A stretch of 37,355 nt of DNA from positions 1-37,355 of the IMG/VR virus record IMGVR_UViG_3300021438_000038; one strand, written 5' to 3'. Below are positions 1-10,177 of this stretch, piece by piece. Under the pieces are notes generated by a model. The model had not been told where the DNA came from. It made no database searches and saw only the letters and a list, made by a program, of their open reading frames with translations. This DNA comes from a virus. Position numbers and translations under genes: made by a program. How positions within the stretch are numbered: the first letter of the stretch is position 1; each line of letters opens with the position of its first letter.

Positions 1-160
1 TGGTGCAGACGGCGGTGACCTGTCGCGCTGTCTCGGTACCGAAGGGTAGCTGTCGCTCGAAGAGGATGGCCGATAGGTCGAAGACGGCGGCTTCTGCGCC
101 GCGCACCTTCTCGAGCGCCTCAATGCGCCGGAGGATTTGCGTTTCGGTCGGGTTCCGCAC
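1..160 (-). CDS. terL: Terminase large subunit, N-terminal part (continues at 37353)
   Basis: This is the 5' end of the packaging ATPase-nuclease gene, whose remainder lies at 35997-37355. Reading leftward from the GTG at 158-160 gives an open frame that enters the 61-bp terminal repeat (2-62) in the same frame as the copy at 37293-37353. Bases 160-63 plus 37353-35997 make 1455 nt, exactly 485 codons. The Walker A motif RRAGKS falls at about residues 54-59, just past the join. The GTG is preceded by GAGGG about 5 nt upstream and lies inside the 3' end of the upstream gene (stop at 120). Another start further upstream in frame is not excluded. Base 1 (T) disagrees with its counterpart 37292 (G), which would alter the codon after the repeat, so it is probably an edge error. 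Confidence 0.88.
   Translation of the reverse strand, partial: MRNPTETQILRRIEALEKVRGAEAAVFDLSAILFERQLPFGTETARQVTAVCT
2..62. repeat. 61-bp terminal direct repeat, left copy
   Basis: Bases 2-62 are identical to 37293-37353, and the flanking bases on both sides (1/37292 and 63/37354) differ. Because the repeat lies within terL and restores its frame, it most likely marks the overlap of a circular or circularly permuted assembly rather than a biological terminal repeat. Confidence 0.95.
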
Positions 161-2851: not shown

Positions 2852-3777
2852 CAGAAGGCTCCCTCGTTGACCGTCACGACGGCTCGGACTGGGCCGGTGC
2901 CGCGAAGGCCAGACTCACCTGCGGACGAGCCTACGAAGTGCGCCAGGTGCTGCACGAGCTGGGACAGCGTGGCGACGGTTGGCCAGCCCTGGTGCGCAAG
3001 AGCTCGGGCCCAAGCATCCGTGACAGCCTCGGTGGATCCGAGCGACGCGAGCAGGGACGTCACGGCGGCGGCGTCACGGGGGGCAAACGGGTAGGCCGCG
3101 CCTCGGGCCCGCTCGAAGGCCTCGACGACGGCTTTGACGGTGGGCGCGTGCCGCGGGTCGGTAGGCTTCGGGGGCTTTGGCGGCTTGCTCTTGAGCGGCT
3201 GGGCGGGTGTCGGTTTTGGTGGGACAGATTCGAAAAGTTCCCCCGGGCCGGGCGGCGTCGCGTCAGCGACCCGCAACGCTTCTCCTGTTCCGTCACGTAT
3301 CGTTCCGTCCCGTCCCGTCCCGTCCCGTAGGGGCGTGACATGCCCGTTTGTCACAACGTGACCGTCACGCATGTCACGCGTGACAGATTCGGACTTCATG
3401 GCCTTCACCTTGGCCCGGTGGGCACGCTGCCTTTCCCTGTTTTTCTCGGCTCTTGACGCCACCTTCTGCTGTTTCTCCGCCCAATCGTGAACGTCGAGCG
3501 AGCCGTCTTCGTTGCGGTCGATCCATCCGCTGTCACAGAGCCCGGAGATGAGCTCTGACGGGTCGCCAGTCCACCCGAGCCAACTGATCGAGCTCGCCAG
3601 CGCCTCGGAGAACGAGGTCACGCGAGCTGTCACAACGTGACCGGTGGGACAAAAGCGTGACACCAACGCCCATGTCCGCGTGACAAGCCCCACCGGGTCG
3701 ACTCCTGGGAGGCGGCGGGCGAGGTCTCTGACCTTCAGGTGATCCGTCATGTCGGCGTCGACGCGGAACCAGCTCAC
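2851..3777 (-). CDS. Phage replication initiator (replisome organizer)
   Basis: A 308-residue protein with the layout of phage replisome organizers. An N-terminal domain (about 1-110) begins MSWFRVDADMTDHLKV, as in the winged-helix initiator domains of many phages. A basic linker follows (about 115-140, with REKNRERQRAHRAKVKA-like composition), then a low-complexity segment (about 140-215) rich in Arg, Asp, Gly, Thr and Pro, and a C-terminal helical domain (about 215-300), probably the helicase-loader contact. The start is a GTG (3777) in a GTGA overlap with the upstream gene. The low-complexity part is encoded by DNA dense in GTCAC/GTGAC sites and a CGTCC tandem array, so the gene may contain its own origin, as lambda O does. 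The upstream gene is a short paralogue of the N-terminal domain. Confidence 0.85.
   Translation of the reverse strand: MSWFRVDADMTDHLKVRDLARRLPGVDPVGLVTRTWALVSRFCPTGHVVTARVTSFSEALASSISWLGWTGDPSELISGLCDSGWIDRNEDGSLDVHDWAEKQQKVASRAEKNRERQRAHRAKVKAMKSESVTRDMRDGHVVTNGHVTPLRDGTGRDGTIRDGTGEALRVADATPPGPGELFESVPPKPTPAQPLKSKPPKPPKPTDPRHAPTVKAVVEAFERARGAAYPFAPRDAAAVTSLLASLGSTEAVTDAWARALAHQGWPTVATLSQLVQHLAHFVGSSAGESGLRGTGPVRAVVTVNEGAF
2873..3684. other. Candidate replication origin: cluster of GTCAC/GTGAC sites
   Basis: Seventeen GTCAC or GTGAC pentamers lie inside the initiator gene. Their starts are at 2873, 3020, 3059, 3073, 3292, 3335, 3350, 3358, 3364, 3373, 3380, 3532, 3617, 3629, 3637, 3657 and 3680. 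Two tight clusters hold seven sites in 3292-3384 and five in 3617-3684. A 16-bp sequence, TGTCACAACGTGACCG, occurs in full at 3349-3364 and 3628-3643 and is itself an inverted repeat (GTCAC-AAC-GTGAC). About two sites would be expected in this length by base composition. Origins inside the initiator gene are known in lambdoid phages; use as an origin here is inference. Confidence 0.5.
3301..3328. repeat. CGTCC pentanucleotide tandem repeat
   Basis: Four perfect CGTCC units (3306-3325) with degenerate copies on each side (CGTTC before, CGTAG after). It lies within the GTCAC-rich part of the initiator gene and encodes the repeated Arg-Asp-Gly-Thr-Gly segment of the protein linker. Confidence 0.85.
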
Positions 3778-6350: not shown

Positions 6351-6556
6351 GACCTCACTCCTCCCGGAGGCGGGCCACCAAGTCCCCTCGCCCGCCGCAG
6401 CGTGAAGGCAAGTATTTCGGAGAGAGTGTCGTGAGTCAGACCGTTCTCATCGCGCCGCTCGAGAGCACCAGAAGAGACGATTGCCTCAGCCACCAGCTTC
6501 CAGGCCCTCCGCCTCCATTGACCGCGCAAGACCCTGCCATCTGTCGTTCTTTTCAT
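6347..6556 (-). CDS. First gene of the leftward operon; small basic protein
   Basis: A 69-residue protein starting MKRTTDGRVLRGQWRRRAW. It is strongly basic at the N-terminus, then helical, with a Gly/Pro-rich C-terminus. The start codon lies only 6 bases downstream of the predicted -10 box of the leftward divergent promoter, so the mRNA would be leaderless or nearly so. The purine-rich GAGGGC between box and ATG is too close to act as a usual ribosome-binding site. Other possible starts within the frame are not obvious. No family is recognised; a first-gene regulator is possible. Confidence 0.68.
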   Translation of the reverse strand: MKRTTDGRVLRGQWRRRAWKLVAEAIVSSGALERRDENGLTHDTLSEILAFTLRRARGLGGPPPGGVRS

Positions 6557-6561
6557 GCCCT

Positions 6562-6624
6562 CAGAGTACGCCTTTATTTTTCGAGCGCAAGGCCTTGCGT
6601 TTCTGAATCTATCGGGGTACTCTG
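6562..6624. promoter_or_regulatory. Symmetric divergent promoter pair with shared palindrome
   Basis: The palindrome CGCAAGGCCTTGCG (6586-6599) carries a TTGCG(T/C) -35-like box on each strand. Rightward: TTGCGT (6595-6600), 17 bp, TACTCT (6618-6623). Leftward: TTGCGC (6590-6585), 16 bp, TACTCT (6568-6563). The outer arms CAGAGTAC (6562-6569) and GTACTCTG (6617-6624) form an inverted repeat nearly concentric with the palindrome (centres 6593 and 6592.5). It separates the two divergent operons and is AT-rich compared with its surroundings. One bound dimer, or RNA polymerase at one promoter, would block both -35 boxes. Confidence 0.75.
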
Positions 6625-6629
6625 TTTTC

Positions 6630-6649
6630 ACGGTCGCAGCACGGACCGT
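6630..6649 (+). promoter_or_regulatory. Hairpin at the predicted 5' end of the rightward transcript
   Basis: ACGGTC (6630-6635) can pair with GACCGT (6644-6649) around an 8-nt loop. It begins about 7 bases after the rightward -10 box, near the expected transcription start, in a ~99-nt untranslated leader. The octamer GTCGCAGC is repeated at 6633 and 6648. It may be a 5' stabilising stem or an operator. Confidence 0.45.
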
Positions 6650-6728
6650 CGCAGCGGGCGATGGGTGGCGCTGGTGACGAGTCGTCTCTCGGAGGCGAAG
6701 CCGCGAAACACGTTGGAGGGGGCTCCAC

Positions 6729-7289
6729 ATGCACTACTCATTGGAAGATGCAGCGAAGAAGCTTGGTATTTCTAGGGTTGATATTTGGAGAGCATTCGTT
6801 GAAGGAGCAATCTCACTCAGGGCTGTAGGCGTGGGTCCGGATGGATGGGCCGTAACGTCGTCTGAGATTGAGCGAATACAGTCTCTTCGAGAGTCGGCTT
6901 CTACAGTGAAGACAACTGACGACACGGCGACATGGCTCCAATCTCACTACCCCCGAGCGGAACGTTGGTGGGCGTTGTGGCTTTCGTCGTGCGAATCGCT
7001 GCGGATCGCGTCCGAGCTTGCGCCGCAACTTCCGGGTTCGCGTGGCGCATCGCTCTTGAGGGAGCACCAGGACGCCGAGCGCTCAGCATCGCTCGGCTAC
7101 CTGTCCGAACTGATCATCGCGTACCAACGCGCCGAGAAGCTGATCGAGGCAAGTGAAGCTCAGGCGTCGAATCCGGACCGGTCCGATTCTGCCCACCGTC
7201 TAGACAAGGCGCGAATCGATAGGCTAAATGTCGATCAGGAGCGCCTCGCAGATCTGATCGCCGAAGTCCGATCGGAGGCGAGGCCATGA
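6729..7289 (+). CDS. HTH protein opening the rightward operon (regulator candidate)
   Basis: A 186-residue protein. Residues ~3-50 (YSLEDAAKKLGISRVDIWRA..., then a short wing and SSEIERIQ) look like the winged helix-turn-helix of excisionase/MerR-type DNA-binding domains. The rest is helical, with a Trp-rich centre and an acidic-basic heptad end. It has a strong ribosome-binding site (GGAGGGG, about 8 nt from ATG). As the first gene after the divergent promoter it is the best candidate for a regulator of that promoter; this is inference. The first ~200 bp are noticeably less GC-rich than the rest of the operon. ATGA overlap with the next gene. Confidence 0.8.
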   Translation: MHYSLEDAAKKLGISRVDIWRAFVEGAISLRAVGVGPDGWAVTSSEIERIQSLRESASTVKTTDDTATWLQSHYPRAERWWALWLSSCESLRIASELAPQLPGSRGASLLREHQDAERSASLGYLSELIIAYQRAEKLIEASEAQASNPDRSDSAHRLDKARIDRLNVDQERLADLIAEVRSEARP

Positions 7290-8299: not shown

Positions 8300-8490
8300 C
8301 TATTCATGAGGCAGCGATGCTTTTCCGAGCGGTGCGAAACCCACCGAGCGACCTGGCCAGAGACCTTGCTTTGAGTCGAATCGTTCTCGTGGTGGCCAAG
8401 GAGCTCGCGCACGAGCACGGAATCAGCGCCAAGGAAGCGGTGAAGGGACTTCAAGACGTCATCAGATCCCCGGTGGTGCAATGGCCCTGA
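8296..8490 (+). CDS. Small helical protein upstream of the exonuclease
   Basis: A 64-residue helical protein, MTIHEAAMLFRAVRNPPSD..., with an upstream AGGAGG. It overlaps the exonuclease gene by 10 bp, so the two are translationally coupled. A role as accessory of the YqaJ/RecT pair is only positional. Confidence 0.72.
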   Translation: MTIHEAAMLFRAVRNPPSDLARDLALSRIVLVVAKELAHEHGISAKEAVKGLQDVIRSPVVQWP

Positions 8491-9341
8491 CGGAAGAGCA
8501 GCTCAAGCAGCGTCGTTCGGGCATCGGAGGGAGCGAGATTGCGGCAATCTTCGGCGAGGACGCGTTCGCGAGCCCATTCGACGTCTGGCTATCGAAGACG
8601 CAAGGGTGGGTAAGGCCATCGACTCCCGACATGGAGAGAGGTACGTATCTCGAGGCCGGAATCGCGGAGTGGTACGCCCACCGCACCGGTCATTCACTGA
8701 TCGAATCCTCCACCCAACATCACGCCAAGGTCGCGATCGCGTTCTGTACGCCAGACCGATTCGAGTGCGTTGGCAATGGACAGGAGCGGATCCTCAGCAT
8801 CAAGTCGCCGCGCCGAGGCGATGCGTGGGGAAAGGCAGGAACAGACGACGTCCCGTCCGGATACCTGCTTCAGCTCCAGTGGGAACACGCCGTTTGCTCC
8901 AGCCTGAAACCTCTCGATCCAGAAATGCGCCTCGTCGCGCTCGTCGACTGCGATCTGCGCGTCTACGAGACGAAGGCAGACCTCGAGATCCAGTCGTGGT
9001 TGCTCGAGTACGCACAGGAGTGGTGGTCTCGACACGTGGTTGGCGGTGAGCAGCCGTCGCTCGATGGGAGCAGCGAGGCGAATCGATGGTTGCGGACGAA
9101 GTTCCCTCGCGACACGGCCCCGATTCGTCCGGCGAGTATGGCCGAGGACCTCGGCATGCTCGATCTGAGAGCCGTAGAATCCGACCTCAAGCGACTGGAG
9201 AGCGAAGCCATGACACTGAAGCTCGCACTGATGCAGGCGATCGGCGATGCCGGGGGGATCGAGAGTCCGGCCGGCAGGATCACCTACAAGGCCGACAGGA
9301 ATGGGAAGCGGTCATTCAAGACACGTTGGACGGAGGAGTGA
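8481..9341 (+). CDS. YqaJ-family viral recombinase exonuclease
   Basis: A 286-residue protein of the YqaJ/lambda-exonuclease group (PD-(D/E)XK nucleases). These digest one strand of double-stranded DNA ends to give single strands for the annealing protein. Seen: the N-terminal RRSGIGGSEIAAIFG signature at 11-25, E58 in ERGTYLEAGIAEWY, PD at 91-92, LSIKSP with the catalytic-type Lys108, and the Gln-rich YLLQLQWE helix at 129-135. A heptad-like helix follows near residues 215-245. The next gene is RecT, the usual partner. The start is the ATG at 8481. Confidence 0.9.
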   Translation: MALTEEQLKQRRSGIGGSEIAAIFGEDAFASPFDVWLSKTQGWVRPSTPDMERGTYLEAGIAEWYAHRTGHSLIESSTQHHAKVAIAFCTPDRFECVGNGQERILSIKSPRRGDAWGKAGTDDVPSGYLLQLQWEHAVCSSLKPLDPEMRLVALVDCDLRVYETKADLEIQSWLLEYAQEWWSRHVVGGEQPSLDGSSEANRWLRTKFPRDTAPIRPASMAEDLGMLDLRAVESDLKRLESEAMTLKLALMQAIGDAGGIESPAGRITYKADRNGKRSFKTRWTEE

Positions 9342-9343
9342 CA

Positions 9344-10177
9344 ATGGCAAACGAAATCGTGAAGGACACTGGTACGGTCGCGACGCTCGCGACGATGATG
9401 CGGGAGCGCAAGGCTGTCATAGAGCAGGCGCTCCCGAAGCACATCACGGCAGAGCGGCTCATGCGCGTAGCGGTCAACTGTGTTTCGAAATCTCCTCAGC
9501 TCCAGCAGTGCTCGCCGCTGTCTCTCTACCGGTCTGTGCTGGTGGCGGCCGAGCTGGGACTAGAGCCGGGTGGCGCGCTCGGACACCTCTATTTAGTGCC
9601 CTACAAGGCCGAGTGCACGGCCCAAATCGGGTACCGTGGGCTCGTGCATCTGGCTCGGCAGAGCGGCGATGTGTCGACCGTGCGCACCGTGGTGGTGAGA
9701 GAGAGAGACACTTTCGGGTGGACCGAGGGGTTCTCGACTCGCATCGAGCACGAGGTGTACCTAGCAGGAGACCCCGGCCCGCTCAAACACGTCTACTGCG
9801 TTGTCGGGCTCAAGGACGGGACGTTCCAGGCCGAGTTGATGAGTCGCGCCCAGGTCGACGCCGTCAAAGCTAAAAGCAAGACGGCTGGCCGCGACGACTC
9901 GCCTTGGGCTCTGCACTTCGACGAGATGGCGCGGAAGACCGTGGCCAAGCGCGGCCTGAAGTGGGCTCCGCTGTCGAGCGAGCGCTACATCCGAGCCTTG
10001 GAGGTGGACGCCGAGGATTACGTCGAAGGTGAGGTATCGACGCCCGACGTGGTCAGCGCCAGCCTCAAGGAGAGGTTGGCGAAGAAGACCGGCCGCCTGT
10101 TTCCGACCACAGAAGAGCTCGATGCGGCGACGCCGGAGTCTGCGCCAGATCCTAAGCCGACACCGCCGAAGGAGTAA
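9344..10177 (+). CDS. recT: RecT single-strand annealing protein
   Basis: A 277-residue RecT-family protein, which binds single-stranded DNA and anneals complementary strands during phage recombination, independently of RecA. The core family pattern is visible: SLYRSVLVAAELGLEP (60-75), GHLYLVPYK (80-88), AQIGYRGLVHLARQSGDV (93-110), and the later AxDDSPW-x-LHFDEMARKTVAKRGLK region. The C-terminus is a Pro-rich flexible tail, as is common. The ribosome-binding site GGAGGAG precedes the ATG at 9344; a longer frame in phase begins inside the exonuclease gene and is not credible. Coupled with the YqaJ exonuclease. Confidence 0.93.
   Translation: MANEIVKDTGTVATLATMMRERKAVIEQALPKHITAERLMRVAVNCVSKSPQLQQCSPLSLYRSVLVAAELGLEPGGALGHLYLVPYKAECTAQIGYRGLVHLARQSGDVSTVRTVVVRERDTFGWTEGFSTRIEHEVYLAGDPGPLKHVYCVVGLKDGTFQAELMSRAQVDAVKAKSKTAGRDDSPWALHFDEMARKTVAKRGLKWAPLSSERYIRALEVDAEDYVEGEVSTPDVVSASLKERLAKKTGRLFPTTEELDAATPESAPDPKPTPPKE

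Follow-up and report, generated by a model that had tools for sequence, protein, structure and literature searches.

The best overall explanation of the region between the two gene blocks of this phage, and one that we hold to be probable, is a pair of back-to-back early promoters of the sigma70 type, the rightward of which would give an RNA with a 5' hairpin. The window, i.e., the whole stretch of 37,355 bp that was analysed, is the entire viral record IMGVR_UViG_3300021438_000038, with a 61-bp repeat at both ends. Positions 6556-6630 would form an early promoter region with two similar promoters recognised by the host sigma70 (TTGCn-16/17-TACTCT), whose -35 boxes lie 4 bp apart and which would together serve the whole genome. 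A leftward RNA from ~6556, beginning with the start codon of a gene for a 69-aa protein, would be a leaderless mRNA opening the replication-virion block, and a rightward RNA from ~6630 would open the recombination block (the 6729 gene, RecE and RecT). Two polymerases would probably not occupy the site together but could alternate, so that both directions would be expressible early; directional control, if any, would require a separate factor. The pair appears to be real and conserved, while its symmetry, judged from sequence comparison, looks more like an incidental outcome of the likeness between its promoters than like a built-in switch. On this explanation, early transcription throughout an uncultured phage group is accounted for by the pair, which is also an example of conspicuous symmetry produced by the similarity of two promoters and needing no switch.

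Nearly all genes of the window point leftward on a codon-usage gene map, the exception being a block from 6729 to ~11,700, and 6556-6729 is the sole divergent gap separating leftward from rightward genes. The leftward block encodes replication initiators, a helicase-loader-like ATPase, a RusA-like resolvase, terminase, portal, a tail protein and an endolysin, and the rightward block encodes RecE and RecT (Table 1). An earlier note on this DNA had placed a divergent promoter pair between these replication/virion and recombination blocks, a reading that is supported here, the pair being kept in relatives. No integrase or repressor was recognised among the part of the window's genes that was tested. 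A phage database searched with DNA and large-protein queries returned no relatives of the window, RecE and terminase being matched only distantly, and the exact full promoter architecture gave no match in IMG/VR. Since RecE matches in a prophage search reached only ~30-34% (in Paracoccus and a Methylothermaceae MAG), no host was assigned. Elsewhere in the window, at 3287-3385 inside a replication-initiator gene, tandem GTTCCGTCCCGTACC units together with the palindrome TGTCACGCGTGACA form a candidate replication origin.

Table 1. Features of the promoter region and of genes on either side; positions are those of the window
Feature	Position	Strand	Remarks
First leftward-block gene, 69 aa	6347-6556	-	ATG at 6556; usable Shine-Dalgarno absent
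Predicted leftward transcription start	6556	-	A of ATG; 7 nt past -10
Inverted-repeat left arm CAGAGTAC	6562-6569	+	8 bp
Leftward -10 box TACTCT	6563-6568 (read 6568 to 6563)	-	spacer 16 bp; TACAGT in L004
Leftward -35-like box TTGCGC	6585-6590 (read 6590 to 6585)	-	
14-bp palindrome CGCAAGGCCTTGCG	6586-6599		core GCAAGNCCTTGC kept in three phages; perfect symmetry in window only
Rightward -35-like box TTGCGT	6595-6600	+	TTGACG in L005, TTGACT in L013
Inverted-repeat right arm (GTACTCTG on +)	6617-6624	-	8 bp
Rightward -10 box TACTCT	6618-6623	+	spacer 17 bp from TTGCGT
5' leader element CACGGTCG...GACCGT	6629-6649	+	stem 6630-6635/6644-6649, loop 8 nt
Predicted rightward transcription start	~6630	+	7 nt past -10; first base of conserved ACGGTCG
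G-rich stretch GGGCGATGGGT	6656-6666	+	kept in window, L003 and L004; close variant in L005
Shine-Dalgarno GGAGG of 6729 gene	6715-6719	+	
First rightward-block gene, 186 aa	6729-7289	+	weak N-terminal HTH_17-like domain
RecE/YqaJ-type exonuclease	8481-9341	+	PF09588 1.6e-16, phrog_434 3.8e-46
RecT annealing protein	9344-10177	+	PF03837 6.7e-40

Direct reading shows that the earlier description of the palindrome, the two TACTCT boxes, the 16/17-bp spacers and the 8-bp inverted repeat was exact to the base. The centre of the inverted repeat lies half a base off that of the palindrome, its arms can be extended to 10/11 matching positions, and the predicted starts are ~74 bp apart. Both strands carry outward-pointing -35 and -10 boxes at 16-18 bp spacing, i.e., the arrangement of a divergent sigma70-type pair, and the identical -10 boxes and nearly identical -35 boxes suggest promoters of similar strength. 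The boxes match the E. coli consensus at 6/12 positions and are weak by that standard; a stock promoter scanner consequently misses the pair. Perfect palindromes of at least 14 bp are at chance level in the window (5 versus 4.35 expected), and four sites of the form TTGnnn-16..18-TAnnnT occur in the 37 kb, where 4.6 are expected; the promoter pair makes up two of the four. By contrast with these chance-level counts, a shuffled genome is expected to contain 0.005 back-to-back TTG/TAnnnT pairs within 60 bp, and 0/200 shuffles had one within 10 bp; for a palindrome combined with a concentric 8-bp inverted repeat the expectation is 0.025 per shuffled window. Once the -10 is shared and the spacers are similar, however, back-to-back placement of two promoters by itself produces most of the palindrome and of the inverted repeat. 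The inverted-repeat arm GGnGTACTCTG occurs in the genome at chance frequency. A sequence with one mismatch to the palindrome core, GCAAGACCCTGC, lies at 6526-6537, 61 bp leftward within the 69-aa gene, and is poorly kept in relatives.

Conservation was followed across five phages, namely the window, L003 (sharing its terminase with the window, 95%), and L004, L005 and L013, which share the early module and show no terminase match. The window, L003 and L004 align across the promoters without gaps and with the same geometry; 11/12 positions of the -35/-35 core are invariant among them, compared with 11/16 and 6/17 in the spacers, and the half-sites GCAAG/CTTGC are retained. L003 has the -10 boxes of the window, and L004 has TACAGT on the left and a degraded TACACC on the right, lacking the final T at position 6, so that the pair is kept in three phages. 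The rightward promoter can be traced further, to L005 (TTGACG-17-TACAGT) and, less securely, to L013 (TTGACT-17-AACTAT, where the distance to the leader helped to locate the -10); the near-consensus -35 boxes are thus found in the two most distant phages. All five share a 17-bp spacer followed by 5 nt between the -10 and CACGGTCG. The gap between -35 boxes is 4 bp in the window, L003 and L004, versus 32 bp in L005 and 22 bp in L013, as measured between the best candidates. The close spacing is confined to the window, L003 and L004, and the -10 symmetry is broken in L004. Against L003 the promoter region as a whole is conserved to an unexceptional degree (top 8% of 76-nt windows). L013, which has an ORF judged integrase-like from a reading of its sequence, shows at 8700-8800 two divergent promoter halves that mirror each other; each contains ACACAAC(G)TTGTGT repeats of the kind that repressor operators would have, and the early region of this phage is likely to be under repressor control.

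The leftward transcript is predicted to be leaderless. The 69-aa protein retains 52-91% amino acid identity in L004/L003, substitutions at codon positions 1/2/3 number 3/3/18 inside its gene (window versus L003), and in the 75 nt upstream of the ATG they number 9/10/9 (window versus L004), i.e., without periodicity. This contrast places the beginning of coding at the ATG at 6556 and excludes both a longer leftward ORF from 6730 and a GTG start at 6631. The arrangement TACTCT-GAGGGC-ATG puts 6 nt between -10 and ATG, too few to accommodate a Shine-Dalgarno sequence, with identical spacing in the window, L003 and L004, and corresponds to the TAnnnT placed 6-7 nt before a start codon, without a Shine-Dalgarno sequence, that characterises leaderless genes. 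Leaderless TANNNT promoters with a fixed -10-to-ATG distance are known (PMC12340547, PMC3898074). The 69-aa protein is predicted to form two helices; a fold search gave no match and no DNA-binding fold was recognised.

The rightward RNA would begin with the hairpin CACGGTCG...GACCG, which would make it one case of a leader common to the early operons of unrelated phages. CACGGTCG stands at the same distance from the -10 in 5/5 related phages and is followed in each by an arm that pairs with CGGTC, across a loop of 4-8 nt, with the G-rich stretch usually next. As a pairing arm is expected by chance in ~0.17 of cases per sequence, its presence in five phages is by itself only suggestive. The hairpin of the window is absent from the minimum-energy fold of its leader; no covariance model in Rfam matched 6500-6800, and eight other leader loci gave no relevant match. 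The likeliest role of the hairpin, as yet unproven, would be to hide the mRNA 5' end from host RNA decay. We prefer protection because RppH and RNase E favour 5' ends that are single-stranded and mRNA is stabilised by 5' hairpins (PMC3997798), and because the RppH of B. subtilis requires at least two unpaired bases (PMC4227774).

Viral contigs outside this group provide a broader view of the leader, with the 5' arm held constant in the searches. Promoter, leader and arm together were found in 18 contigs (rough chance estimate ~2), and the arm-free pattern TTGAC-N18-TAnnnT-N5-CACGGTCG in 90 (chance estimate ~20-30). The test set comprised 68 distinct leaders in 40 clusters, a few loci having entered through the arm-requiring search and all fitting the arm-free pattern. 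A 5-bp pairing arm is present in 21 of the 40 clusters, whereas 1,000 shuffles gave 3.5 +/- 1.8 and at most 9; the exact GACCG arm is present in 14/40, versus 0.8 expected. Loop length varies from 4 to 13 among leaders, which favours RNA pairing over a DNA operator and disfavours one of fixed spacing. Within the next 20-60 nt there is usually a ribosome-binding site with a start codon, and the genes downstream encode RecE-like and phrog_69 exonucleases, a Mu Gam-like protein, DNA polymerase, DNA methyltransferases, a phage RNA polymerase and, in one case, terminase.

Early promoters of many unrelated contigs among L024-L117 (e.g., L038:5064-5137, L035, L041 and L052) have CACGGTCG...GACCG at the base where transcription is predicted to begin, usually once per genome and twice in L052, L062 and L105. 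Among 398 Pseudomonadota genomes there were two leader-promoter matches, none with a GACCG arm, versus three in a reversed control, i.e., no enrichment; the matches in L103 (Klebsiella phage K5-2) and L008 are probably due to chance. A palindrome such as GGCGAAATGATTTCGCC, probably a repressor operator, fills the -35/-10 spacer in L041, L045, L054, L061, L076, L077, L089 and similar contigs, and in L067 and L110 the leader precedes GCTCTTTAAAAA, a sequence similar to a boxA antitermination signal. We regard as evenly balanced the proposal that CACGGTCG-loop-GACCG is a cis-acting RNA element, undescribed in the open-licence literature, of early operons for recombination, DNA methylation, DNA polymerase and phage RNA polymerase in unrelated phages, that it either protects or marks early mRNA or acts on RNA polymerase like a put-type antiterminator, and that the rightward promoter studied here is one instance. 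If true, the leader would represent a widespread means by which phages withstand RNA turnover in the host, or else a signal in the RNA that acts on RNA polymerase; it would then matter more than the promoter pair, and it can be tested in laboratory reporters.

The earlier note interpreted the symmetry as a built-in two-way switch, on the ground that the two polymerases cannot bind together. Spelled out, this reading makes the pair bistable through exclusion, with a phage regulator bound to the palindrome or to the inverted repeat deciding between the two blocks. Simultaneous binding is indeed unlikely in the window, L003 and L004, given -35 boxes 4 bp and starts ~74 bp apart; the -35 half-sites are kept in these three phages, and the repeats in the mirror-image halves of L013, a phage with an integrase-like gene, make operator control of the homologous region plausible there. 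However, the 32- and 22-bp gaps of L005 and L013 imply that mutual exclusion is not a common feature, the -10 symmetry is lost in L004, and no integrase or repressor was recognised among the window genes tested. Published cases of exclusion are not switches by exclusion alone: E. coli promoters with mutually exclusive polymerases do not compete at basal strength (PMC12825309), and the documented overlapping-promoter switch requires unequal promoters and a differential regulator (PMC4207663), as opposed to the same -10 and near-equal -35 boxes found here. Nor does the product of the 6729 gene, named by the earlier note as the obvious candidate regulator, fit well: its HTH domain scores below the Pfam cut-off (17.5 versus 27 bits), the HTH part is missing from the L004 orthologue although most boxes are kept, and the recognition helix differs in L003 although the DNA sites are almost identical. 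Foldseek matches that might have made the protein MerR-like by fold were not significant. A bistable switch is on balance improbable.

The main rival, less remote and still unlikely, holds that the palindrome serves primarily as the binding site of a dimeric repressor, either the 69-aa protein or the HTH protein encoded at 6729, which would shut both promoters in an autoregulated co-repression; it could coexist with the preferred explanation. The near-invariance of the core relative to the spacers agrees with such an operator, and the product of a gene adjoining the site could bind it. Against this, the -35 boxes on both strands already account for most of the palindrome, which has one exact copy in the window and four matches at no more than one mismatch (1.6 expected), so that its repetition as an operator is not significant; of the two candidate proteins, the 69-aa one has no recognisable DNA-binding fold and the other lacks its HTH part in L004. 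That a GC-rich genome has merely yielded palindrome-like boxes, with the true promoters elsewhere, accords with the expected frequency of 14-bp palindromes and with the silence of the stock scanner; the pair statistics, the retention in relatives, the fixed distance to a conserved leader and the position in the only divergent gap make it very improbable. Because exclusion is not shared, switch precedents differ and the HTH regulator is weak or missing, two independent early promoters, with a symmetry stemming largely from their similarity, appear to be the better reading.

The pair can be placed among several known systems. Back-to-back phage promoters ~80 bp apart between divergent units are represented by PR/PRM of lambda, which the present arrangement resembles; in contrast to lambda, no CI/Cro-like gene or repeated operators were found here, and neither side is a dedicated repressor promoter. 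The divergent promoters Pc/Pr of pLS20 are likewise too close for two polymerases and lie between two gene blocks, yet they coincide, one is several hundred fold stronger than the other, and their regulator Rco, with its repeated operators, has been mapped, whereas here the boxes are nearly equal and come with no known regulator or operator array (PMC4207663). Sequence symmetry also gives divergent transcription, without two polymerases being bound at once, at the bidirectional promoters of E. coli described by Warman et al. (PMC12825309). Those promoters share a -10 and start ~10-23 bp apart, while here the -35 boxes adjoin and two separate -10 boxes would direct starts ~74 bp apart, so that the pair is not a bidirectional promoter in their sense. 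The leftward promoter is similar to the leaderless promoters of Deinococcus-Thermus and Mycobacterium in having TAnnnT directly before a start codon without a ribosome-binding site (PMC12340547, PMC3898074), the difference being that here one such start was examined. Finally, the rightward leader is comparable to the 5'-terminal stem-loops that stabilise mRNA (PMC3997798), as its hairpin would start about one or two nucleotides into the predicted mRNA, at nucleotide 1-2; it differs from them in that its first eight bases recur across unrelated phages, beyond what stabilisation requires.
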